Shown here: positions 2,412-64,000 of the stretch, piece by piece
Position numbering within the stretch: position 1 is the stretch's first letter
Layout: each line of letters begins with the position of its first letter
Notes under the pieces: generated by a model
What the model was told of the DNA's origin: nothing
The model's input: only the letters and a program-made list of their open reading frames with translations
The model's database searches: none
Program-made: the position numbers and the translations under genes
Source: Cryoendolithus antarcticus
Lineage: Eukaryota > Ascomycota > Dothideomycetes > Cladosporiales > Cladosporiaceae
DNA: 64,000 nucleotides
Direction of reading: 5' to 3'
Assembly (NCBI GenBank): GCA_002077065.1
Contig: NAJO01000027.1
Span: forward strand, 674,231 to 738,230

Positions 2412-2566
2412 GGCCCAGTGGTCTAGTGGTATGATTTTCGCTTCGGAGATTCTCCAGGAGCTCTGCTCCCAAGATTGCGAGAGGCCCCGGGTTCAAAGTC
2501 AGTACATACCGAGAATCCCTCCACCCTCATCCTTCACTAACGACTCGCTTAGTCCCGGCTGGGCCC
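2412..2566 (+). tRNA. tRNA-Pro(CGG) gene with two insertions (anticodon-loop intron and a T-loop insert)
   Basis: The acceptor stem GGCCCAG (2412-2418) pairs perfectly with CTGGGCC (2559-2565), leaving discriminator C2566. The D-arm (GGTCTAGTGGTATGAT) is the usual proline form. The anticodon stem TTCGC (2437-2441) pairs with GCGAG (2477-2481) around TTCGGA, giving anticodon CGG at 2444-2446. A 28-nt intron (2448-2475) sits at the canonical 37/38 position. The T-stem CCGGG (2487-2491) pairs with CCCGG (2554-2558), but the T-loop TTCAAA-T is interrupted after its sixth base by 55 nt (2498-2552). That insert begins GTCAGT, contains CACTAACG and ends TTAG, like the spliceosomal introns of this genome. 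A TTTT run follows near 2580. Position 37 is A rather than the usual G of proline tRNAs. It could be a functional gene with an extra intron, or a disrupted pseudogene. Confidence 0.8.
2498..2552 (+). other. 55-nt spliceosomal-intron-like insert inside the tRNA T-loop
   Basis: The insert lies between T-loop positions 59 and 60. It starts GTCAGT, the same donor as the intron of the Zn2Cys6 gene at 12.3 kb. It has a CTAAC branch-type motif about 14 bases before the end and ends TTAG. Its length matches the 48-69 nt introns of most genes here. Removing it restores a perfect T-arm and acceptor stem. Fungal tRNA introns known to me sit only at 37/38, so the position is anomalous. Confidence 0.65.
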
Positions 2567-10536: not shown

Positions 10537-12508
10537 TCAGCTCTGCAGGTCGCCCCAGTGGTCAAGCAGGTCTTTCGCTCTCCACTTCGTAGCCCACCCC
10601 ATCTCGCGTTCCATCCTCTCGTACAACTCCAGAATCGCTCGATGCTCACTCGTATGACTCATCAGCTGTCCAGCAATCCATATAGGCTGCGTTGCGTTGC
10701 TCCAGCAGGCATGGTTGCTATTGCTCATGCTGATTGCACAGACTTGTCGTGCGTGCCAGAGCATTGACCGAGGCTTGGTGGACAAATGTAGAGATGCGGG
10801 CTTGTGCTTGAGCATGAGCAGTGCGGCTGTGTGGTAAAGTTGATTCCCGGAGATGGCTGGGCAATTAGGGTACATGACTGTAGGGAAAGTCGATGGCGGA
10901 TCGGAATGCTCAGCGGGTATCACCAGGATAGGCTTCAGCTCTTGCGGCCGATTGCGGTACCAGGTCTCGATATGATCGAAGAGCTCGAGCCAGTGACTGA
11001 CGTATTGCTTGTGCGTGTACACGAAATTAGGATCCTGATGGCGTTGTTCCCAGCGACCGAAGCGGCACAGCAGCTCGACGACTCTGCCAAGCAAGTACTC
11101 AATGTGATTTGCTTTAGTGTCGCAATTGTCTTTCGCTTGCAGCAGACGGACATCCTCAGCCAAAGCGCCGCCGCCAATCCACTTTGACATCGGTATCAGA
11201 GTCTGCTCTAGCGAGATCAGACCACCACAGACATCCATGCGTGCGAAACACCAGAAAATGGCTTGCTCTGCGCCGCCGCAGATGCCAGTGATACCAAGAG
11301 CTTGTATCAGTGCGGCACAGCCATCAAGATGTCGGCGCCATGCCTTAGGCGAGCAACTTAGCATCTCCAGTACGCACAGCACGACTGAAGATGCCAACAC
11401 TACAGTCGTGCGCTGCGCAAGTGCTGGCGAAAGCAAGTGAATCGCATGCTGATAAAGAGCCAGACTGGTCGCCAGCTCCAACTTGTGCTCTTTGAGCTCG
11501 ATCTGCCGTGCCGACAGTGCCAGCATAGAGTACTTGAGATGTTCGACATCCTTCGCCCAGATCGGTAGGACCAGCTCAAAGTGCCGATTGATGTCAAACT
11601 TATCGAGCCAGGGCGCAACTTCGCTGATGTAGTTCTGCCAGAGGACATACTCCTGGGCAGGTGACAGTTGCGCAAGTCTTCGCGACTCCTCGTCAATATC
11701 AGTAATTCCGATGACAGGCCCATCGTGTAGCATCTGCAATGCTTCGGCAGTGGCATCGACAGAGGCACGCCGTGAAGGCACACAAGACTGGACACGCGAT
11801 GGCACAGTCGAGCGAGCTGTGTCCATCAACTTTGACCGCAGCTCTACATGCAGCTCCTGATACTGCGATCCTGGCACAAAGATGCCATCCTCGAACGTCG
11901 AGTCGCTAAAGTGTGGTGACAAGAATGTGCTGCCCGTGAAGTCAAAGAAGTCAACCCCAAGCGAGTGTGACGATGTGATCTCCGGTAGCGGGAACACTGG
12001 GCTCGGTAGATCCAGGATTGCTTTCGGAGGGAAGTCTTGTAGTTGAGGACTGATAAGCTCTGTCACGACTTCATCAAGGCTTTCTGGAAGGGGCTCGGGC
12101 GTAGGCACTTCGGTGATATAGTCGCGCGCAATCTCTGCCGTGATGTCGACAATCTGGAAGACCTTGCTGTTGCTTGAAGGCCGGAAGAGCGAACGATACT
12201 CATCGCCCACGGTCTGCGCATTCTCCGGGCGGAAGGTGACCTTGATGCCCTGTGATCTGCATGTTAGCTGAATGTCGTTCACTGAGGCTGCTCAAACTGA
12301 CCCATTCACACTTCTCGCTCCGGGCCTGACATCCTTCGCATGTCGGCTTCGTCTCAGAACATTTTCGCCTCTTCCGGCGACAGTTCATACACCCATTCCG
12401 GCTGCGCTTCTTCCCAGAAGTCGGGAGCTTGCCAGTCGCCTGCTCCGGGGGTGTGCTACTCTCTTTGATGACTTCGTCCGCGCTATCCGTCCCTTCTGAT
12501 ACGGCCAT
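10537..12508 (-). CDS. Zn2Cys6 transcription factor with fungal_trans_2-type domain
   Basis: Two exons, 12302-12508 and 10537-12249, with a 52-nt intron (GTCAGT...GCTAAC...ACAG) just after the zinc cluster; 639 aa. The binuclear cluster CX2CX6CX6CX2CX6C spans residues 40-67, preceded by basic KKRSRNG. The remainder matches the DUF3468/fungal_trans_2 activator class, with a region near LSPAQEYVLWQNYISEVAPWLDKFD and an HFELVLPIWA segment. It presumably binds CGG-type half sites in the nucleus. It lies beside the sugar-enzyme genes and could be their regulator, but no direct evidence supports that. Confidence 0.88.
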
Positions 12509-40712: not shown

Positions 40713-41251
40713 CTACTCCCCATCCATCACCCCTTCCTCCCCGAGCCGTCCCATGAACACCGTCTCCCGCTTGTCAATCAGCCATCTCCCTGTAGCCCCG
40801 GGCAGTACATCCTCGGCCGCATCAGCTTTCACTCTGACAAAGTGATCAACATACCTTCCCCAAGCCGTCACCTGCTGCCCCTTCCACTTTCCCTGCCCGA
40901 AGTGAATTCCAGTAAAATACGTCGTCGTCTCAGCCGTCTTTCCATCAGCCGCCATCTCGATGGTTTGCGTAGTCAGAGCGTGCTGGGATGTGATGTGCTT
41001 CAATCTGTATCATTCATTAGCGATCAGAGTACTGGATAATACACACTCTCAACGCACCGATCAGAGATCTTCGCCTGTATGGCTTCCACTCCTTCGAGAG
41101 CTGGGCCGAATGGATACTTGGCTACTACATTTTCAGTGAAGACTCGGGCCAGCAGGCTGAAGTCTTTCGTGTCAAGTGCTACGCAGTAGCGGGACAGGGT
41201 GTTGCGGATGGCTTCGTAGTCGATCGCGGACTGATTTGTTAGCGATGACAT
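40713..41251 (-). CDS. SnoaL-like/NTF2-fold protein
   Basis: Two exons, 41058-41251 and 40713-41004, over a 53-nt intron (GTGCGT...GCTAATG...ACAG); 161 aa. The start is ATG 41249-41251 (MSSLTNQSAIDYEAI); the longer frame begins with GTG. AIRNTLSRYCVALDTKDFSLLARVFTENV is the classic opening of the SnoaL_4 fold. The second exon gives KHITSQHAL, then TTYFTGIHFG, VTAWGRYVDHFVR and WLIDKRETVFMG, matching the cone-shaped alpha+beta barrel of about 140 residues. Members include dehydratases, cyclases and many uncharacterised proteins. No associated pathway is evident here. Confidence 0.85.
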
Positions 41252-41710: not shown

Positions 41711-43064
41711 CTACTTCGACGTCTCCCTCACAACAGCATCCACGCTATCCGCGAAGTAATCCACATTATTCGTATTCAACCCAGCCATGCTGATCCGCCC
41801 ATTCTTCGTCATATACACATGGTACTTCTCCCTCAGCCTCTGCACCTGTGCCTCGTTCAGCCCAGTGAACGAGAACATCCCAATCTGGTCCGTGATGTGG
41901 TTCCACGTCCCCGGCGTCTTCTTCTCCTCCAGCTTCGTGCGCAGCGCCTTGCGCATCTCCTTGATGCGACCGGACATTGTACGAAGATCCTCTTCCCATT
42001 GTGCGAAGAGTTCCTTGTCGTTGAGAATCAGGGACGCGATACGAGCGCCATATGCAGGCGGGTTTGAGATCTCAGAGCGTTGGAGGATGGCAAGCTGCGA
42101 GCCGACGCGGGAGGTGGTCTCTTGTGCGTGCGAGCCAGGCGATGTGACGAAGTGGAAGGCACCTGCACGCTCACCGTAGAGGCCAAAGTTCTTGGCGTAG
42201 GACTGGCAAATCACGAGCTCAAAGCCTTGCTCGACGAAGTAGCGGATTGCCCAGGCGTCGGTGCTGAGGGAGCCGGAAGCGAAGCCTTGGTAGGCACAGT
42301 CGAAGAAGGGAAAGAGGGACTTCTCCTTCATGATTGTGGAGATCTGCTTCCACTGGTCCTGCGTTGGGTCGACACCAGTGGGGTTGTGTGCACAGGCGTG
42401 GAGGAGGATGATGCTGCCCTCAGTGGCAGACTTGAGTGAAGAGACCATGCCGTCGAAGTCGAGACCCTTGGTCTCCTTGCTGAAGTAGGGGTACGTCTTG
42501 ATTGGGAGATTGACATTACTGAAGATCTGGTTGTGATTCGCCCATGTAGGCGAGCTGACGTGGATGGCCTTCGACTCTGAGTTCGAGGGAGTATAGAACT
42601 TCGACAGGAAGAGACCGCCGAGATGCACTGCACCAGTACCGGAGACAGTCTGGAGGGAGACGACCCGCTTCTCTGAGATTGCTGGCGAGTCGTCACCAAG
42701 GACGAGCTTTTGGGATGCTGTGGTGAAGTTGGCGAGTCCAGCAATGGGGAGGTATTCGTGATTGAGGTTGGGATCATCACGAAGTCTGTCGTCGGCCTTC
42801 TTCACCACTGGAAGAACCCATGGCTTCGCATTGTTGTCTCTGTATGCGCCGATACCCAGATCAACTTTCTTTGAGTCCTCATCCTTGCGGTATGCTGCCA
42901 TCAGCCCGAACTGGACATTATCAGCCTCGTTCAATGAGCTCTGAACGCTCCGAACATACCAAAGGATCCTCGGGTGCCTGCTGCACCGCGCCAAAGGCGC
43001 TCTGTATTCCATTGCCCCCCATCTGTGCGGTGATTTGATGTAGACGTTGATGTGAAGATGACAT
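41711..43064 (-). CDS. Aspartate aminotransferase
   Basis: Two exons, 42960-43064 and 41711-42910, over a 49-nt intron (GTATGT...GCTGATA...CCAG), joining APEDPL to FGLMAAYRKD; 434 aa from ATG 43062-43064. It is a PLP fold type I enzyme: VDLGIGAYRD, substrate loop region GTGAVHLGG, HNPTGVDPT, FFDCAYQGFASG, and SYAKNFGLYGERAG with the PLP-binding lysine near residue 273; GRISMAGLN near the end holds the substrate-binding arginine. It interconverts aspartate/2-oxoglutarate and oxaloacetate/glutamate. No clear mitochondrial presequence, so probably the cytosolic isoform. Confidence 0.95.
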
Positions 43065-47592: not shown

Positions 47593-49489
47593 ATGGCAGG
47601 CGAGAAAGACTTTGAAGTTGGCGCGGCCAGCTACCAGTCTACGGGCTACCGCCGAGGTAGCGTGAAAGACATCGAAGAGAAGCAGCGGATGGGCAAAGGC
47701 GCAGATCTTGATCTGCCTATGTACGACGATGTTGAGCGAGACCAATCGGAAGTTGCCAACATCAGCGGTATTCGCGACCAGACGCACAGAAAGCTGCGGC
47801 CAAGACACATCCAGCTCATCGGGTAGGCCACCAAGACGGTTCGAGCTGGAAACAATTACTGACCAGATCAGTATCGGAGGCACAATCGGCACAGCGCTCT
47901 ACGTTCAAATCGGCAGAGGTCTGCTCAATGGCGGACCCGGCAGCCTCTTCATCGCCTTCAGCTTCTGGTGCACGATCATCCTGTGCGTCACGCTCTGCAT
48001 GGCCGAAATGGTTACCTACCTCCCGATCTCCTCGCCCTTCATCCGCTTCGCTGGTCGCTACGTTGATGAAGCATTCGGATTCGCCGCTGGCTGGAACTTC
48101 TTCGTCTTCGAGGCCATCCTCGTGCCATTTGAGATCACAGCATGCAATGTCATCATACACTACTGGTCAGACATTGTGCCTGCGGGCGGCATCATTGCAA
48201 TCACGATCATTCTATACGCTGTGCTGAACCTGCTTGCTGTCAAGTGGTACGGCGAGAGCGAGTTCTGGGCTGCGCTGGGCAAGGTGTTGCTTATCATTGG
48301 CTTGATTATCTACACGTTCATCACCATGCTGGGTGGTAATCCGCTCAAGGATCGATATGGCTTCCGCTACTGGAACGACCCCGGAGCGTTCGCCGAGCTA
48401 TACTACGAAGGGACCCTCGGCCGATTCTGTGGCTTCCTCAACTGCCTGATCCAAGCGTCCTTCACGATCGCTGGACCGGACTACGTCTCCATGGCTGCTG
48501 GAGAGGCCGAGAACCCCCGAGTCGTTATGCCAAAAGCCTTCAACGCTGTGTTCTACCGCTTGACAACGTTCTTCGTCCTCGGTAGTCTGTGTGTTGGCAT
48601 TGTAGTACCACACAACGATCCTGAGCTCACTGCAGCGTTCAAGAACGGGGAGCCTGGCGCTGCAGCTTCGCCATACGTCGTCTCGATGAACAGACTCCGG
48701 GTACAGGTGTTGCCGGACATCGTGAACGCGCTGGTGCTCGCTTCCGCCTTCTCCGCAGGTAATAGCTATGTGTACTGCGCCTCGCGATCGCTCTTCGGCC
48801 TGGCGCTCGAGGGAAAGGCTCCGAAGATCTTGACAAAGTGAGTCTACAGACGTCGGCTACTCTTCGCAAGTGTTATATACTGACTCCTCGGTAGGACCAA
48901 TCGCCAGGGTGTTCCATACTACTGCGTTGGCGTCGTGCTTGCCATCGCTCTCCTTGCCTTCCTTCAAGTCAGCAGCGGAAGCGCCACAGTCCTGAACTGG
49001 TTTGTCTCGCTCGTGACCGCTTCGCAACTCATCAATTTCGCTGTCATGTGCCTGACTTTCCTCTTCTGGCGGCGAGCACTCATGGCGCAAGGCATCTCCC
49101 GCGATACCTTACCATATAAGGCCATCCTACAGCCCGGCGCAGCGTACGTCGGTCTCGCATTCTGCAGCGTAATGGCGTTCGTGGGAGGCTATCCTGTATT
49201 CCTGCCTGGCAACTGGGATGTCCCCACTTTCATCTTCAGCTACTTCATGATTGCGCTTACCCCGATTCTGTTCGTGGTGTGGAAGATTCTCAAGAAGACC
49301 AAGATCAGGAAGCCGCATGAGGTCGATCTTAGGGGAGAGGTTGCGTCGATTGATGAGTACACGAGGCTGTTCGTGCCGAAGCCGCCGAGGTAAGTTGCCA
49401 CCTATGCGTGCACAGAGATGGACAGGTACTGACTTTGCGATCACAGGAACGCCTTCGACAAGTGGTTCAACAAGATCTTTGGAGGGTAG
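47593..49489 (+). CDS. Amino-acid permease (YAT/AAT family, APC superfamily)
   Basis: Four exons, 47593-47822, 47872-48837, 48895-49389 and 49447-49489, with introns of 49, 57 and 57 nt; 577 aa. A hydrophilic N terminus leads to KLRPRHIQLIGIGGTIGTALYVQIG, the first-helix signature of fungal amino-acid permeases. AFGFAAGWNFFVFEAILVPFEITA marks helix 3, and FTIAGPDYVSMAAGEAENPR is the conserved loop after helix 6. About twelve helices are visible and the protein ends FDKWFNKIFGG. It imports amino acids with protons at the plasma membrane; specificity is not readable. It lies downstream of the secreted carboxypeptidase, a sensible functional pair, though each has its own promoter. Confidence 0.92.
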
Positions 49490-59878: not shown

Positions 59879-60307
59879 GGTGGATGTCGTGAGTGGTCTT
59901 GACGAAGCTATCGGACGAGCTATAGGAAAGCTGAATGGTGCTTTCGGGAGTGTGAGTTGGGTTACTGCGGTCCGAAGACGGGGCGCTAGATGGTAGAGAG
60001 CCAGGATCGAGACGAGGGAGAGGAGGAGAAGGAGGAAGGGACGCCGGCGAAGAGGGGATTGGGAGCCGAGGGGAGCCAGGATTGAGTTGGAGGGTGACTC
60101 AGGAGGATGTGTGGTGGTACGAGAGGGATGGAGCGGTCAGAAGAGGATGTCAATAAGGAAGCTGAGCGTGTGATCCTTCCAATGTAGCTGCATTGACTAG
60201 CGCTGACTCGGGGGACGTGCACACATGGAAGTGAGGGTTCACGGCTCGACTTTGAAGGCGTTCAGGACAACTAACATCTCACCTGGTCACTGGCAGAGAT
60301 TATTGGC
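59879..60307. promoter_or_regulatory. Divergent promoter between the M3 peptidase and Fhit-like genes
   Basis: 429 bases between two outward-facing starts. The part next to the peptidase is very pyrimidine-rich on the minus strand, as expected for a fungal 5' leader. Confidence 0.45.
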
Positions 60308-60924
60308 ATGACCATGCCGCCATTCCCAGGCCGCACGATTCACTTCGGCAGCTTCAACGTGACCTCCCAGGTCTGCATACAGCATGCGCTACCACTGCAC
60401 CTACGACGAAGCTGAGTACAAGGTAGGTCTTCCATACAACTCCTCACTCCTTTGCGCTCGTGAATCTCAAGCCTCTCCTCCCTGGTCATGTTCTCGTCTC
60501 GCCACTGCGGGTCAAACCTCTCCTCGCGGACCTCTCACATGAAGAACTCTCGGACCTCCTCCTCACGGTGACCCGCGTTCAGAAGACTCTCAAACGACTC
60601 TACAAGGCGGATGCGTTCAATGTCGCGATACAAGACGGCGAGCCGGCGGGACAGAGCGTGAAGCATGTACACTGTCATGTCATCCCACGATTGAAGGACG
60701 ATGCCGGGGGCGATGACAAGGTGCATGAGTGGCTCAAGGGCGAGGAGGGGAATGTCGGCAAGCACCAAGGTGAGGTCGAGGGAGGTCAGAGGAACGCGGG
60801 CGAATGGGCCAAGGATGATGAGAGGAAACCGAGGACGATGGAGGTGATGCAGGAAGAGGCGAAGTGGCTTCGCTCGGAGATAGAGAGGGATGCGAGTGAT
60901 GGCGCGCCTCCGGGGAGATTGTGA
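60308..60924 (+). CDS. HIT-family hydrolase, Fhit-like (diadenosine polyphosphate hydrolase)
   Basis: Two exons, 60308-60370 and 60427-60924, over a 56-nt intron (GTCTGC...GCTGAG...GGTAG); 186 aa. The join gives GSFNVTSQVFHTTPHSFALVNLKPLLPGHVLV, the classic Fhit opening. The histidine triad QSVKHVHCHVIPR lies near residues 96-108. Fhit/Hnt2 splits Ap3A into AMP and ADP through a His-AMP intermediate. The C-terminal 60 residues are charged, longer than yeast Hnt2's core. A second in-frame ATG two codons downstream could be used. It is the last gene before the mutated subtelomere-like block, which begins within about 100 bases of its stop. Confidence 0.92.
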
Positions 60925-61627
60925 ACAGCCACATTAACGACGTTCGTTTTGCTCGATCGACTCCCTTGTCGACCCTATAGCTGTCTCGTCCGTCGCGCGC
61001 ACCCTACGCATATACGAGCGCCGGCCTACTATTCCTATAAGTTAGTAGAACTAGTTCTTCTCCTCTAAGAGGACTACTACTAAGTAGATAGTAGCCTAGT
61101 AGTAGATTTCCTAGAAACTTAGTAACTTTCTTTAGATATAACTCTATATTCTTTACTATATTCTTACCTCTATTAAAGTACTTATATAGTATAGTACCCG
61201 GGTTAGTAAATCTTCTAGTTAGTAGATCTCTATAGCTAGATAAATAAGGCGTATTAGAGATATCTAGTAGGTTAGTAGAGTTCTCCTTACTATTCTCTAT
61301 CTTCTTAAGATCTATCTCTATAATACTATCTTCTAGGCTAGTATTAAAGAATAGAAGACTACTATAGCGTTCTAGTTCTATCTTAGTTAGTAGATTAGAG
61401 AATAGGTCCTTAACTATATCTATCTTAATAGGTATACTATCTAGAGTAATAGTATCTCTATCGATATTCTTTATAGGCTTATAAGTACTTATATTCTTAA
61501 AGTTATAGAACTTAAGCTTATTACGAAGTAGATATAGTTCGCTAAAGTAGTTATTCGAGCTAATAGTTAGGTTAGAATCTATAAAGTTAGTAAGAGTTAG
61601 ACTACTACCTTCTATTCATAATCCTAA

Positions 61628-61720
61628 AATAGGATTAGGTTAATCCTATTTATAGCCCTATATAAATTTTCCGGAAGGGTTAGGGTTAGAGGGTTAATCC
61701 TATTTAGTTAATCCTATTTA
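61628..61720 (+). repeat. Three TTAATCCTATTTA repeats, a short inverted repeat and TTAGGG-like units
   Basis: TTAATCCTATTTA occurs at 61640-61652, 61694-61706 and 61708-61720. The first copy is also the right arm of the inverted repeat AATAGGATTA/TAATCCTATT (61628-61637 and 61641-61650, 3-nt spacer). Between copies one and two lies GGGTTAGGGTTAG (61678-61690), matching the usual fungal telomere unit TTAGGG. The group sits about 300 bases upstream of the relic coding region and could mark an element boundary. Confidence 0.7.
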
Positions 61721-62039
61721 TGTCCCGCGGTCGCATATACTCGATATTAATATAAAAGATAGCGGGAGATATCGCTATTCGTTCGCTATAATCTATAGTA
61801 CCGTATAACGTCGCGTTAAGCTTTAATATAATACGGTAGAATAGGCGAAATAGAAGTAAAGTTCCTTCTAAAGTATAGGGTATAGGGTCGAGGGTTAGGG
61901 TCTATAGCGAAATAAGTCTACTAACGCGTAAGGTTCGTATTCGCGTTACGCGTCTAGATATTTATCTATACTCTAAATCTAAAGGGATAGAAGTAACTAT
62001 ATAGGAAATATATATAGCTACCGCCCGTATTAGATAGTA

Positions 62040-64000
62040 GAGATAGACCTATTTAGTAAGATCCTTATATACCGGCCGGAGTACTACGTAATTATCTATA
62101 AGAGGTATAAGTATACTATTAATCCTAACTAGGTTACCGGGTATATTAAGGTTAACTATAGTAGTATTACTAAGCGGGAACGTAAGGAGATCGTCCGGAC
62201 TATCGCTAGTCTAGTAGGTCTCGCGTAGGATTTAGACTAGGTTAGATATCCCGATATATATAGCGTAGTAGTAAGTAGACTACCCGTATATTAGAATAGA
62301 TTAAGATATATAGTAGAAGTAGATAGGAGGGTATATAACCGTACCTACCGGGAGAGAAGTAGTATTTAGAGGCATTACTAGGCGGAGTACGATTAGGAGA
62401 ACCTACGGGAGCGAGGTAGGCCTATAACCGATACCGATTAGAGTTAAATATAGGTAGGTAAGTAACTATACTAGTAGTTCTTTAAGAGCGGTACTTAGAA
62501 GCGGTATTTCCCCGTCTAGGCTATTCCGGAGATTAGCTACGTAGCCGTAGTCGATCTAGTCTAGTAGGCTAACTCGTAGATAGACGGATTATTTAAGAAA
62601 TTCGAGGAGGCTAGCGAGTAGGATAGGAGCGAGCGGAGCCGGTACGAGCTAAACCCGTAGCTAGAATATACCGGATAGGAGAAATATATCGGTAGGTATA
62701 AGGTATAGGTTATCGACTAGGTACGGGAGTATAGAGAAGACGAGCCGGCGAAGGAGAGCGAGGAGGGAGAGCGGGGTAAAGGGGTAGAGGAGAGTAAGGA
62801 GGCGTTAAGGAAGGCGTATATTAGTACGATAGTATTAATTAGACGATCCTTTAACGCTAGCCGGGTTAAGATCGTAGGACGATATATAATATAGTACGTT
62901 TACCGACAGGAGAACGGGGCGCCTATAAGTAACCGGCCCTTCTATAGAAAGTAGAAGGTCGAGTTAATCCGGAAGTATATGGCTATATTCCTTAAGATAC
63001 TACGGTATATCTAGCGGACGGAAGCGGTTAGCGAACGGCCGGCGTATCGATTAATACCGGATTAGAAGCTAGCGTTAGTTAAGTTACGATATACCGTAAA
63101 GATAGAGGGCGAGAGGATAAGTACGAGAGAGAGGGTAGTAAATACTAGTCTAGAGTTCTAGATCGCTATATTTAGATACCCGCTAGGAGATAACGAGTAC
63201 GAGAGCGGATTACTAAGCGGACTAGCCGTACTAGGAGCCGGGGGAGAGAAGAACGGCTAGGTACCGGCGATTAACTATACGCCTATATTAGCCGCGGTAA
63301 TTACTACGTCGCGGGCTATAGTCTTACGCCGTACGTAGCGGACGCGAGAGGAATATATTACTATATAGGTATAGGACGGCGTAGATAAGGTTATCTTACG
63401 GTAGGGTACGCCGGTAATCTACGAGTTAGTATAGAAGGACGTAGCCGGGTTTATAACTATAACGGAATTCGGAGGTAGCCCGTAGCCTATAAATATAATC
63501 TATACGTAGAAGATATACGGTATAAAGATTAGGTATATAACTAACGCGGACGGTTAGATCGGCTAGAGTAGAGACGAGCCGGGTATAATCCTAGTACGGA
63601 AGATCTAGTTTAGTATAGGATAGATCCGGATAGTAGTATACGGATTACTAGATACCGTACGGGAGTAGTTAGCGGCGGATCTATTATATATACCGCCGAG
63701 GGTTAAGGAGTAGTAGCCGGAGGATCTACTATAGATTAAGATTAGCTAGATTGCCGATAACTATATAATAGCCGACGAGGGGTAGAGTTTCTTCTAGGAC
63801 GTACGTAATAAATAGCCGGTAGACGGACGGAAATAGATAGGATAGCGGTTATATACTAACGCTAATATACGGGAATAGTTTAACGTCGACGGGTCCGGCG
63901 GTACGTTAGACCCTAAGGCGGTAGAGACGTATCTACGTAAGGTAAAGCGGTAGAAGGAGACGATATTAGCGTTAGTCTATATATTAGGGTTAGGGTAGGG
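62040..64000 (+). pseudogene. RIP-inactivated telomere-linked RecQ helicase (TLH) relic, DUF3505 and upstream domains; continues beyond window
   Basis: One uninterrupted frame (codon starts at positions divisible by 3) carries many stops, almost all TAG, with two TAA near 62.45 kb. If TAG is read as an original CAG or TGG, the family pattern appears. First is the C2H2-like DUF3505 unit (PEYYVIIYKRYKYTINPNQVTGYIKV), with its Cys and His codons turned to Tyr. Next come LFKKFEEASEQDRSERSRY, SFNASRVKIVGRY, GDNEYESGLLSGLAVLG, YTPILAAVITTSRAIVLRR, KIYGIKIRYITNADG and GTLDPKAVETYLRKVKR near the end. These match the long N-terminal part of subtelomeric RecQ-like helicases of filamentous fungi. The helicase core would lie to the right. 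No frameshift seen. Confidence 0.85.

Follow-up and report, generated by a model that had tools for sequence, protein, structure and literature searches.

The tRNA-Pro(CGG) gene at positions 2412-2566 of the 64,000-nucleotide stretch of Cryoendolithus antarcticus DNA analysed here, referred to below as the window, is interrupted twice, and the second interruption falls within the T-loop. The question that this locus raises is whether such an insert can be removed from a tRNA precursor, and by what. A first-pass annotation had left two options: either the spliceosome is needed to process a Pol III transcript, or an intron-like insertion has disrupted the tRNA gene. The results presented here favor the former, with the splicing itself predicted from the DNA sequence: the gene very probably works, is transcribed by Pol III and has as its insert a spliceosomal intron of the U2 type (GT-AG). 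Inserts of this kind number at least 26 and interrupt at least 24 tRNA genes. Support comes from the lack of an intact Pro-CGG gene in the searches described below, from the intact motifs of a second interrupted copy, and from the additional interrupted genes, 23 in all with that copy included.

The tRNA-Pro(CGG) gene of the window

As delineated by ARAGORN on the spliced sequence and by direct reading, the gene consists of five pieces on the forward strand, three exons and two interruptions. Exon 1 (2412-2447), which is identical in the second copy, provides the 5' strand of the acceptor stem, the D arm, the 5' strand of the anticodon stem and the loop to position 37. It harbors an internal A box, TGGTCTAGTGG, at 2419-2429, read directly against the A-box consensus. 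An ordinary 28-nt intron of the tRNA endonuclease type follows at position 37/38 (2448-2475; 30 nt in the second copy). Exon 2 (2476-2497) extends from position 38 to T-loop position 59, and exon 3 (2553-2566) comprises T-loop position 60, the 3' strands of the T and acceptor stems and the discriminator C. Between them lies the 55-nt insert (2498-2552), assigned as a spliceosomal-type intron on the basis of excision tests and a homologous 54-nt insert in the second copy. It opens with a 5' splice site, GTCAGT (2498-2503), carries the branch-site motif CTAAC (2537-2541) with 12 nt after the branch A at 2540, and closes with a 3' splice site, TTAG (2549-2552). Given its position at 59/60 the insert is not a 37/38 intron, whereas 2448-2475 is. 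The first-pass annotation had drawn both interruptions and the 59/60 junction at precisely these coordinates, and the exon map and ARAGORN agree.

Neither the unspliced sequence nor that lacking the 37/38 intron alone was recognized as a tRNA by ARAGORN. Rfam detected no tRNA in the raw window at the gathering score and none at E-values up to 10 in 2350-2650, and the pattern GGTTCRANNCC had no match in the window. Once the 55-nt insert is excised, ARAGORN calls tRNA-Pro(CGG) with a score of 110.8. The stems had been said to pair perfectly after both removals; this is true of the acceptor stem (7/7 pairs) and the T stem (five pairs), but the anticodon stem contains one T-G wobble. When the boundaries were left free, four of 8,323 excisions of 40-80 nt tied as best, one of which is exactly GT..AG. 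Any slide of the GT..AG edges alters the mature sequence, as can be read directly, and the three shifted excisions are tied by ARAGORN. A total of 10,839 GT..AG excisions, 45-65 nt long and drawn from the entire window, yielded a sole tRNA at a score of at least 107, that of Pro-CGG, and 14,270 decoy TG..GA excisions yielded none at this threshold.

It is barely conceivable that the inserts are self-splicing. Group I and group II introns are known from the tRNA genes of bacteria and organelles, but self-splicing introns need more than the 51-58 nt that the inserts of this genome occupy. In addition, there was no such Rfam match in the window at the gathering score, and E-values up to 10 in 2350-2650 gave only an unrelated weak snoRNA match.

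The grammar and size of the insert had been likened to those of the protein-gene introns in the window, and the likeness is borne out. A search that required a branch motif predicted six introns of 49-57 nt, with a seventh candidate of 99 nt set aside, and their grammar is shared with the tRNA inserts (51-58 nt). The predicted intron at 12250-12301 on the minus strand begins with the very hexamer that opens the Pro-CGG insert, GTCAGT, and contains CTAAC. Pfam domains span the junctions of the introns at 48838-48894 and 41005-41057 (AA_permease and SnoaL_4), and the junction of that at 42911-42959 falls outside the Pfam domain.

Elsewhere in the window, the GC content drops from about 0.55 to 0.44-0.45 in 60001-64000, with a strong GC skew at the end. 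A 203-residue AT-rich open frame on the minus strand (61004-61615) has no Pfam match. This region is possibly a repeat-induced-mutation island or a mobile element.

With regard to transcription, the B box GGTTCAAAGTC at 2490-2500 matches eight of the nine specified positions of the B-box consensus, its final three bases being contributed by the insert. The first-pass annotation had the insert following straight after the GGTTCAAA of the B box; this holds in modified form, in that GGTTCAAA attains 8/9 together with the GTC of the intron. A TTTT at 2582-2585, read directly, is a probable Pol III terminator, and the surrounding sequence, TTGTTCTTTTGCGCTTC, is identical in the second copy. Direct reading revealed no strict TATA within 70 nt upstream of the gene.

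The second Pro-CGG gene lies on contig C61 and is diverged, its 120-nt flanks being 72% and 68% identical to those of the window gene, yet its mature exons are identical. Its insert, at the same site, measures 54 nt (GTAAGC...ACTAAC...AAAG) and, with an identity of 58% to that of the window, retains GT, CTAAC and AG. Intact Pro-CGG genes and a decaying insert in relatives had been counted among the marks of a pseudogene. Here the comparison was made with the second copy of the same genome rather than with a relative, and it shows identical mature exons and intact splice motifs. As for other Pro-CGG genes, neither a genome-wide D-arm pattern allowing one mismatch (11 matches) nor genome-wide DNA similarity (2 matches) disclosed a further one, intact or otherwise. 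Note that exon 1 of both copies contains a TTTT, a possible obstacle to Pol III. A decayed Pro-CGG 3' fragment followed by GTAAGTACC is also present on C61 (L044:575-618), in the opposite orientation to the second gene and approximately 1 kb away from it.

Interrupted tRNA genes across the genome

The survey covered the draft genome, 46.97 Mb in 149 contigs. An RF00005 search in which 63 of 986 candidates were scored, and which is not a census, provided at least 53 loci. The set was extended with D-arm patterns and a B-box pattern, and loci judged tRNA-like or new were followed up. Many of the pattern matches are due to chance; reversed-pattern controls also match (control versus real: 50 versus 66, 155 versus 67 and 17 versus 37 for the D arm, and 9 versus 46 for the B box). 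No Asn gene was identified from an anticodon-arm pattern, which gave 33 matches, all with one mismatch (control, 54). GT..AG excisions of 40-110 nt were applied at 151 loci (duplicates counted) and at 17 more, and paired GT..AG excisions at 42 loci, where they were convincing for L065 and L066 only. The census is thus partial and biased toward intact D arms or B boxes.

In this partial survey, at least 24 distinct tRNA genes representing 14 isoacceptors carry at least 26 inserts of 51-58 nt. The Pro-CGG insert of the window is accordingly not isolated, inserts of the same kind being found in 23 other tRNA genes, the second Pro-CGG copy among them. The set contains three genes for Lys-CTT, two each for Pro-CGG, Arg-TCT, Ile-AAT, Leu-TAA, Arg-TCG, Asp-GTC, His-GTG and Glu-TTC, and one each for Pro-AGG, Ala-CGC, Gly-TCC, Leu-CAG and Leu-TAG. 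Two of the three Lys-CTT genes (L065 and L066) hold two inserts each. The sites are 8/9, 51/52, 54/55, 56/57, 57/58, 59/60, 61/62, 63/64, 65/66, 68/69 and 69/70, in 15 gene-by-site combinations, and several of the genes, including Pro-CGG, also have a 37/38 intron. After splicing, the acceptor stem shows 7/7 pairs in 21 of the 24 genes and 6/7 in three, the Asp pair and Gly-TCC, whose intact paralogues have the same 6/7-paired acceptor. Some ARAGORN labels were revised on the basis of paralogues and anticodon loops: L131 was re-read as Asp-GTC instead of Phe(aaa), L136 as Leu-CAG instead of SeC(tca), L137 and L026 as Leu-TAG instead of Stop(tta), and L042 as Ala-CGC instead of Ala(tgc).

Excision of GT..AG restored a tRNA at 29 loci, which include five duplicates and two spurious cases and correspond to 22 genes, whereas with six decoy dinucleotide pairs the number restored was 3-7 per pair, out of 168 loci; many of the decoy restorations are the same true genes with other edges. 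The spurious loci, L054 and L119, were dropped since excisions at other dinucleotides also "restore" various tRNAs there. When the boundaries were freed (40-80 nt, about 8,200 excisions per locus), GT..AG was among the top ties, 1 to 8 in number, at 17 of the 20 loci covered by this test, L065, L066, L159 and L166 lying outside it. At the other three (L063, L064 and L067) a non-GT..AG excision outscores GT..AG by 1.3-2.2 in ARAGORN, and the intact paralogues agree with the GT..AG junction (Ile L017, and Leu L046 outside the 37/38 intron).

The GT and AG ends, present in 26/26 inserts by construction of the search, are not independent evidence, because discovery used GT..AG excision. The branch motif, on the other hand, played no part in finding the inserts. 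CTRAY occurs in 24 of the 26, with 9-12 nt after its A, whereas only 147 of 4,183 random GT..AG stretches of like length from the window contain it with 8-20 nt after the A. A GTNNG 5' site, the branch motif and YAG are found together in 22/26 inserts versus 35/4,183 random stretches. The deviants are L033, which ends in AAAG, L137 and L166, which lack CTRAY at the usual place, and L066, with a 5' site of GTACAT.

These signals bear on the possibility that a bulge-helix-bulge motif directs the tRNA splicing endonuclease to the inserts, an arrangement known from archaea and from the red alga Cyanidioschyzon merolae. A GT..CTRAY..AG grammar and a uniform length, here 51-58 nt, are not known as features of that class of introns. 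Admittedly, introns at positions other than 37/38, the D and T arms among them, and sometimes several per gene, are described for archaea, C. merolae and cryptophyte nucleomorphs, many of the nucleomorph introns having no defined motif (PMC4090602, PMC3978253), and eukaryotic endonucleases are reported as able to cut archaeal-type substrates (PMC4090602). Those introns, however, measure 3-24 nt in Guillardia theta and possess the bulge-helix-bulge in the others, whereas the inserts of C. antarcticus carry spliceosomal signals and for the most part fail a helix test in one register: the central 4-bp helix is complete in 1/26 (L138) and 3/4 paired in 4/26. Cleavage by the endonuclease is very unlikely, and removal by the spliceosome remains the preferred reading.

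Pol III signals are also present. TTTT occurs within 60 nt downstream of all 24 insert-bearing and all 62 intact genes used for comparison, as against 7.5% of random window stretches; four Glu-CTC genes outside this comparison are intact as well. A TATA lies within 70 nt upstream of 20/24 insert-bearing and 39/62 intact genes (random window stretches, 9.6%). No TTTT was found within the 26 inserts, where about one would be expected. With an insert in the T loop, the B box loses one to three of its nine specified positions, and in Leu-CAG and Leu-TAG it is reduced to 6/9 with no replacement core in the insert. The core GTTCRANNC is present inside 3 of 26 inserts (Ala-CGC and the Asp pair) versus 9 of 4,183 random stretches. 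The Ala-CGC insert splits the B box and brings its own core; the exon boxes of the Asp genes stay intact, and for this reason the insert-borne cores can be taken as suggestive only.

Several other loci were encountered. At L158 (C67:742820-743182), a 51-nt GTAAGT...TTCTAACC...CGCAG at locus positions 122-172 interrupts both the D arm and the A box near 11/12. This Val-TAC-like locus with a possible D-arm insert was left uncounted, as ARAGORN gave no good tRNA after excision. Long tRNA-like stretches with an A-box D arm like TGGTCTARTGGTA at the start and a distant B-box-like sequence (L036, L038, L040, L119 and L125) may be Pol III units, tRNA-like or SINE-like, that have decayed. The related loci L108, L111 and L114 display an upstream TATA, TGGTCTAGYGGTTA and downstream T runs; neither single nor double excision gave a tRNA there, and they may represent another Pol III RNA.

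Empty sites, sole copies and sequence conservation

For 14 of the 24 insert-bearing genes there is an intact paralogue from which the insert is cleanly absent. The whole spliced sequence is identical to that of the intact paralogue for Pro-AGG (L039), both Ile-AAT genes (L017) and Gly-TCC (L015), and it differs in the 37/38 intron only for both Leu-TAA genes (L046, L047), Leu-CAG (L048), Ala-CGC (L042), both Asp genes (L124, L133) and the Lys genes L065 and L066 (L099). The remaining two show one paired change each, in the acceptor stem for Leu-TAG L137 versus the intact L026, and in the anticodon stem for Lys L049 versus the intact L099; L049 also lacks a 37/38 intron. The Lys-CTT genes accordingly occur in three states: with no insert (L099), with that at 8/9 only (L049), and with inserts at both 8/9 and 68/69 (L065 and L066). 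Since introns are present at 15 gene-by-site combinations, they were probably gained repeatedly, and the absence of several from intact paralogues indicates that some of the gains (or losses) postdate a duplication of genes or of the genome.

Many tRNA genes are paired across different contigs with diverged flanks. The genome thus seems to hold two diverged copies, which suggests an old hybrid or whole-genome duplication. In nine pairs with inserts at the same site, not a single mature-exon difference was observed, and all differences between the spliced sequences fall in 37/38 introns. The flanks of these pairs (up to 120 nt, with one of only about 20-30 nt) are 46-79% identical. A separate gapped alignment gave 1,413 of 1,895 ungapped flank positions as identical, a figure inflated by the gapping. 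Within the inserts, the GT, branch and AG columns are identical at 88/90 positions and the columns outside these motifs at 355/446. The lack of mature-exon differences and the two paired stem changes are as expected for purifying selection on the exons while the insert is present, with gene conversion possible in some pairs. Indeed, the inserts of the Ile (98%), His (96%) and Arg-TCG (93%) pairs are nearly identical beside diverged flanks. This suggests gene conversion or a recent exchange in these pairs and may explain part of the exon identity.

Three isoacceptors besides Pro-CGG were encountered in interrupted form only. Searches with the spliced tRNAs as queries (73 nt for tRNA-His), in which the counts are lower bounds, returned two genes each for His-GTG, both interrupted at 59/60, Arg-TCT, both at 68/69, and Glu-TTC, both at 63/64. 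No intact His-GTG, Arg-TCT or Glu-TTC gene was found in the draft genome, where, given its draft state and the lower-bound counts, an intact copy could be missing. Two additional Glu-TTC matches, L169 (C129:96849-96890) and L170 (C78:197333-197376), are 42-44 nt in length and contain the 5' part only, with no tRNA there. To our knowledge, GTG is the only histidine anticodon in eukaryotes, so that removal of the insert is a necessity for the cell if no gene is missing from the draft.

It might be argued that the insert-bearing genes are pseudogenes hit by intron-like insertions, the tRNAs being supplied by intact copies elsewhere. Short insertions in the D or T arms of eukaryotic tRNA genes are described as mostly affecting one of many copies and as supposed pseudogenes (PMC4090602). 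Intact copies do exist for Pro-AGG, Ala-CGC, Gly-TCC, Ile, Asp, Lys, Leu-TAA, Leu-CAG and Leu-TAG, and decay is seen in the Pro-CGG fragment and in the truncated Glu-TTC 5' half of L169. Such an explanation is nonetheless highly improbable when set against the four isoacceptors for which the draft genome revealed no intact gene, the unchanged mature exons beside diverged flanks, the splice motifs retained while the remainder of the insert drifts, and the paired changes in the stems.

Proposed maturation pathway and implications

In the pathway proposed for these working genes, Pol III would transcribe exons and introns alike from the internal A and B boxes and stop at TTTT, the signals being observed and the transcription predicted from them. 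Still in the nucleus, the spliceosome would subsequently excise the intron of 51-58 nt, so that the T arm, the acceptor stem or the acceptor/D junction is restored, and RNase P and tRNase Z, together with the tRNA endonuclease where a 37/38 intron is present, would complete the tRNA. These three enzymes need a folded tRNA body, and thus the spliceosomal step should come first, with intron removal preceding the folding of the body. The last mature exon is as short as 4 nt in Pro-AGG, which counts against this explanation.

Introner-like elements are near-identical repeats, whereas the inserts are mutually dissimilar between gene families, those of different families showing no similarity at an E-value of 0.01 to one another, to the window or to the examined loci. 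That the inserts are copies of a mobile element of this type, which splices out wherever it has landed, is rather unlikely, even though many tRNA genes are affected here and introner-like elements are reported as multiple spliceosomal intron gains in related fungi of the Dothideomycetes (PMC4457414). It should be noted that such an origin does not conflict with spliceosomal removal.

The spliceosomal introns proposed for C. antarcticus have their closest likeness in those of the fission-yeast U6 snRNA and fungal U3 snoRNA genes, which are of the mRNA type with canonical splice sites, and the presence of which may vary between related species and even paralogues; U3 is termed a polymerase III gene in the same source (PMC5832005). 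There, however, one RNA species is concerned, whereas here there are 14 tRNA isoacceptors, two introns in each of two Lys genes and often a 37/38 intron as well. With genes that bear canonical 37/38 introns, cut by the Sen endonuclease, the present ones share ordinary tRNA bodies and, in several cases including Pro-CGG, the canonical intron itself; the inserts differ from it in position, in the GT..CTRAY..AG grammar and in their fixed size. Eukaryotic tRNA genes are limited to one intron according to the description of tRNAscan-SE 2.0, where the search for non-canonical introns is described for the archaeal mode (PMC8450103). Fungal genes for non-coding RNAs are thus already known to have spliceosomal introns; among the introns of tRNAs such a class looks new, no report of it having appeared in the titles and abstracts searched in the open-access literature.

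The introns of tRNAs and those of mRNAs are taught as separate worlds with separate enzymes. If the interpretation is true, mRNA-type introns in at least 24 tRNA genes tie the supply of tRNA to the spliceosome, which can then act broadly on compact Pol III transcripts. Given that some of the genes concerned are essential, the cell probably needs the spliceosome to produce certain essential tRNAs. It is likely, at a level of confidence somewhat below that for the introns themselves, that this fungus is obligately dependent on the spliceosome for translation. On that view the T arm or acceptor stem would be interrupted by a spliceosomal intron in its sole genes for tRNA-His, tRNA-Arg(UCU) and tRNA-Glu(UUC). 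These introns would add one more class to the nuclear tRNA introns, distinct from the endonuclease-cut and the self-splicing ones; they would have arisen by repeated gain, and in at least one gene the Pol III B box would have been rebuilt within the intron. The existence of sister copies that lack the introns would make the mechanism of intron gain testable. Finally, standard tRNA finders can miss essential tRNA genes, as ARAGORN missed Pro-CGG until the insert was excised, and other fungi may hide similar tRNA introns.
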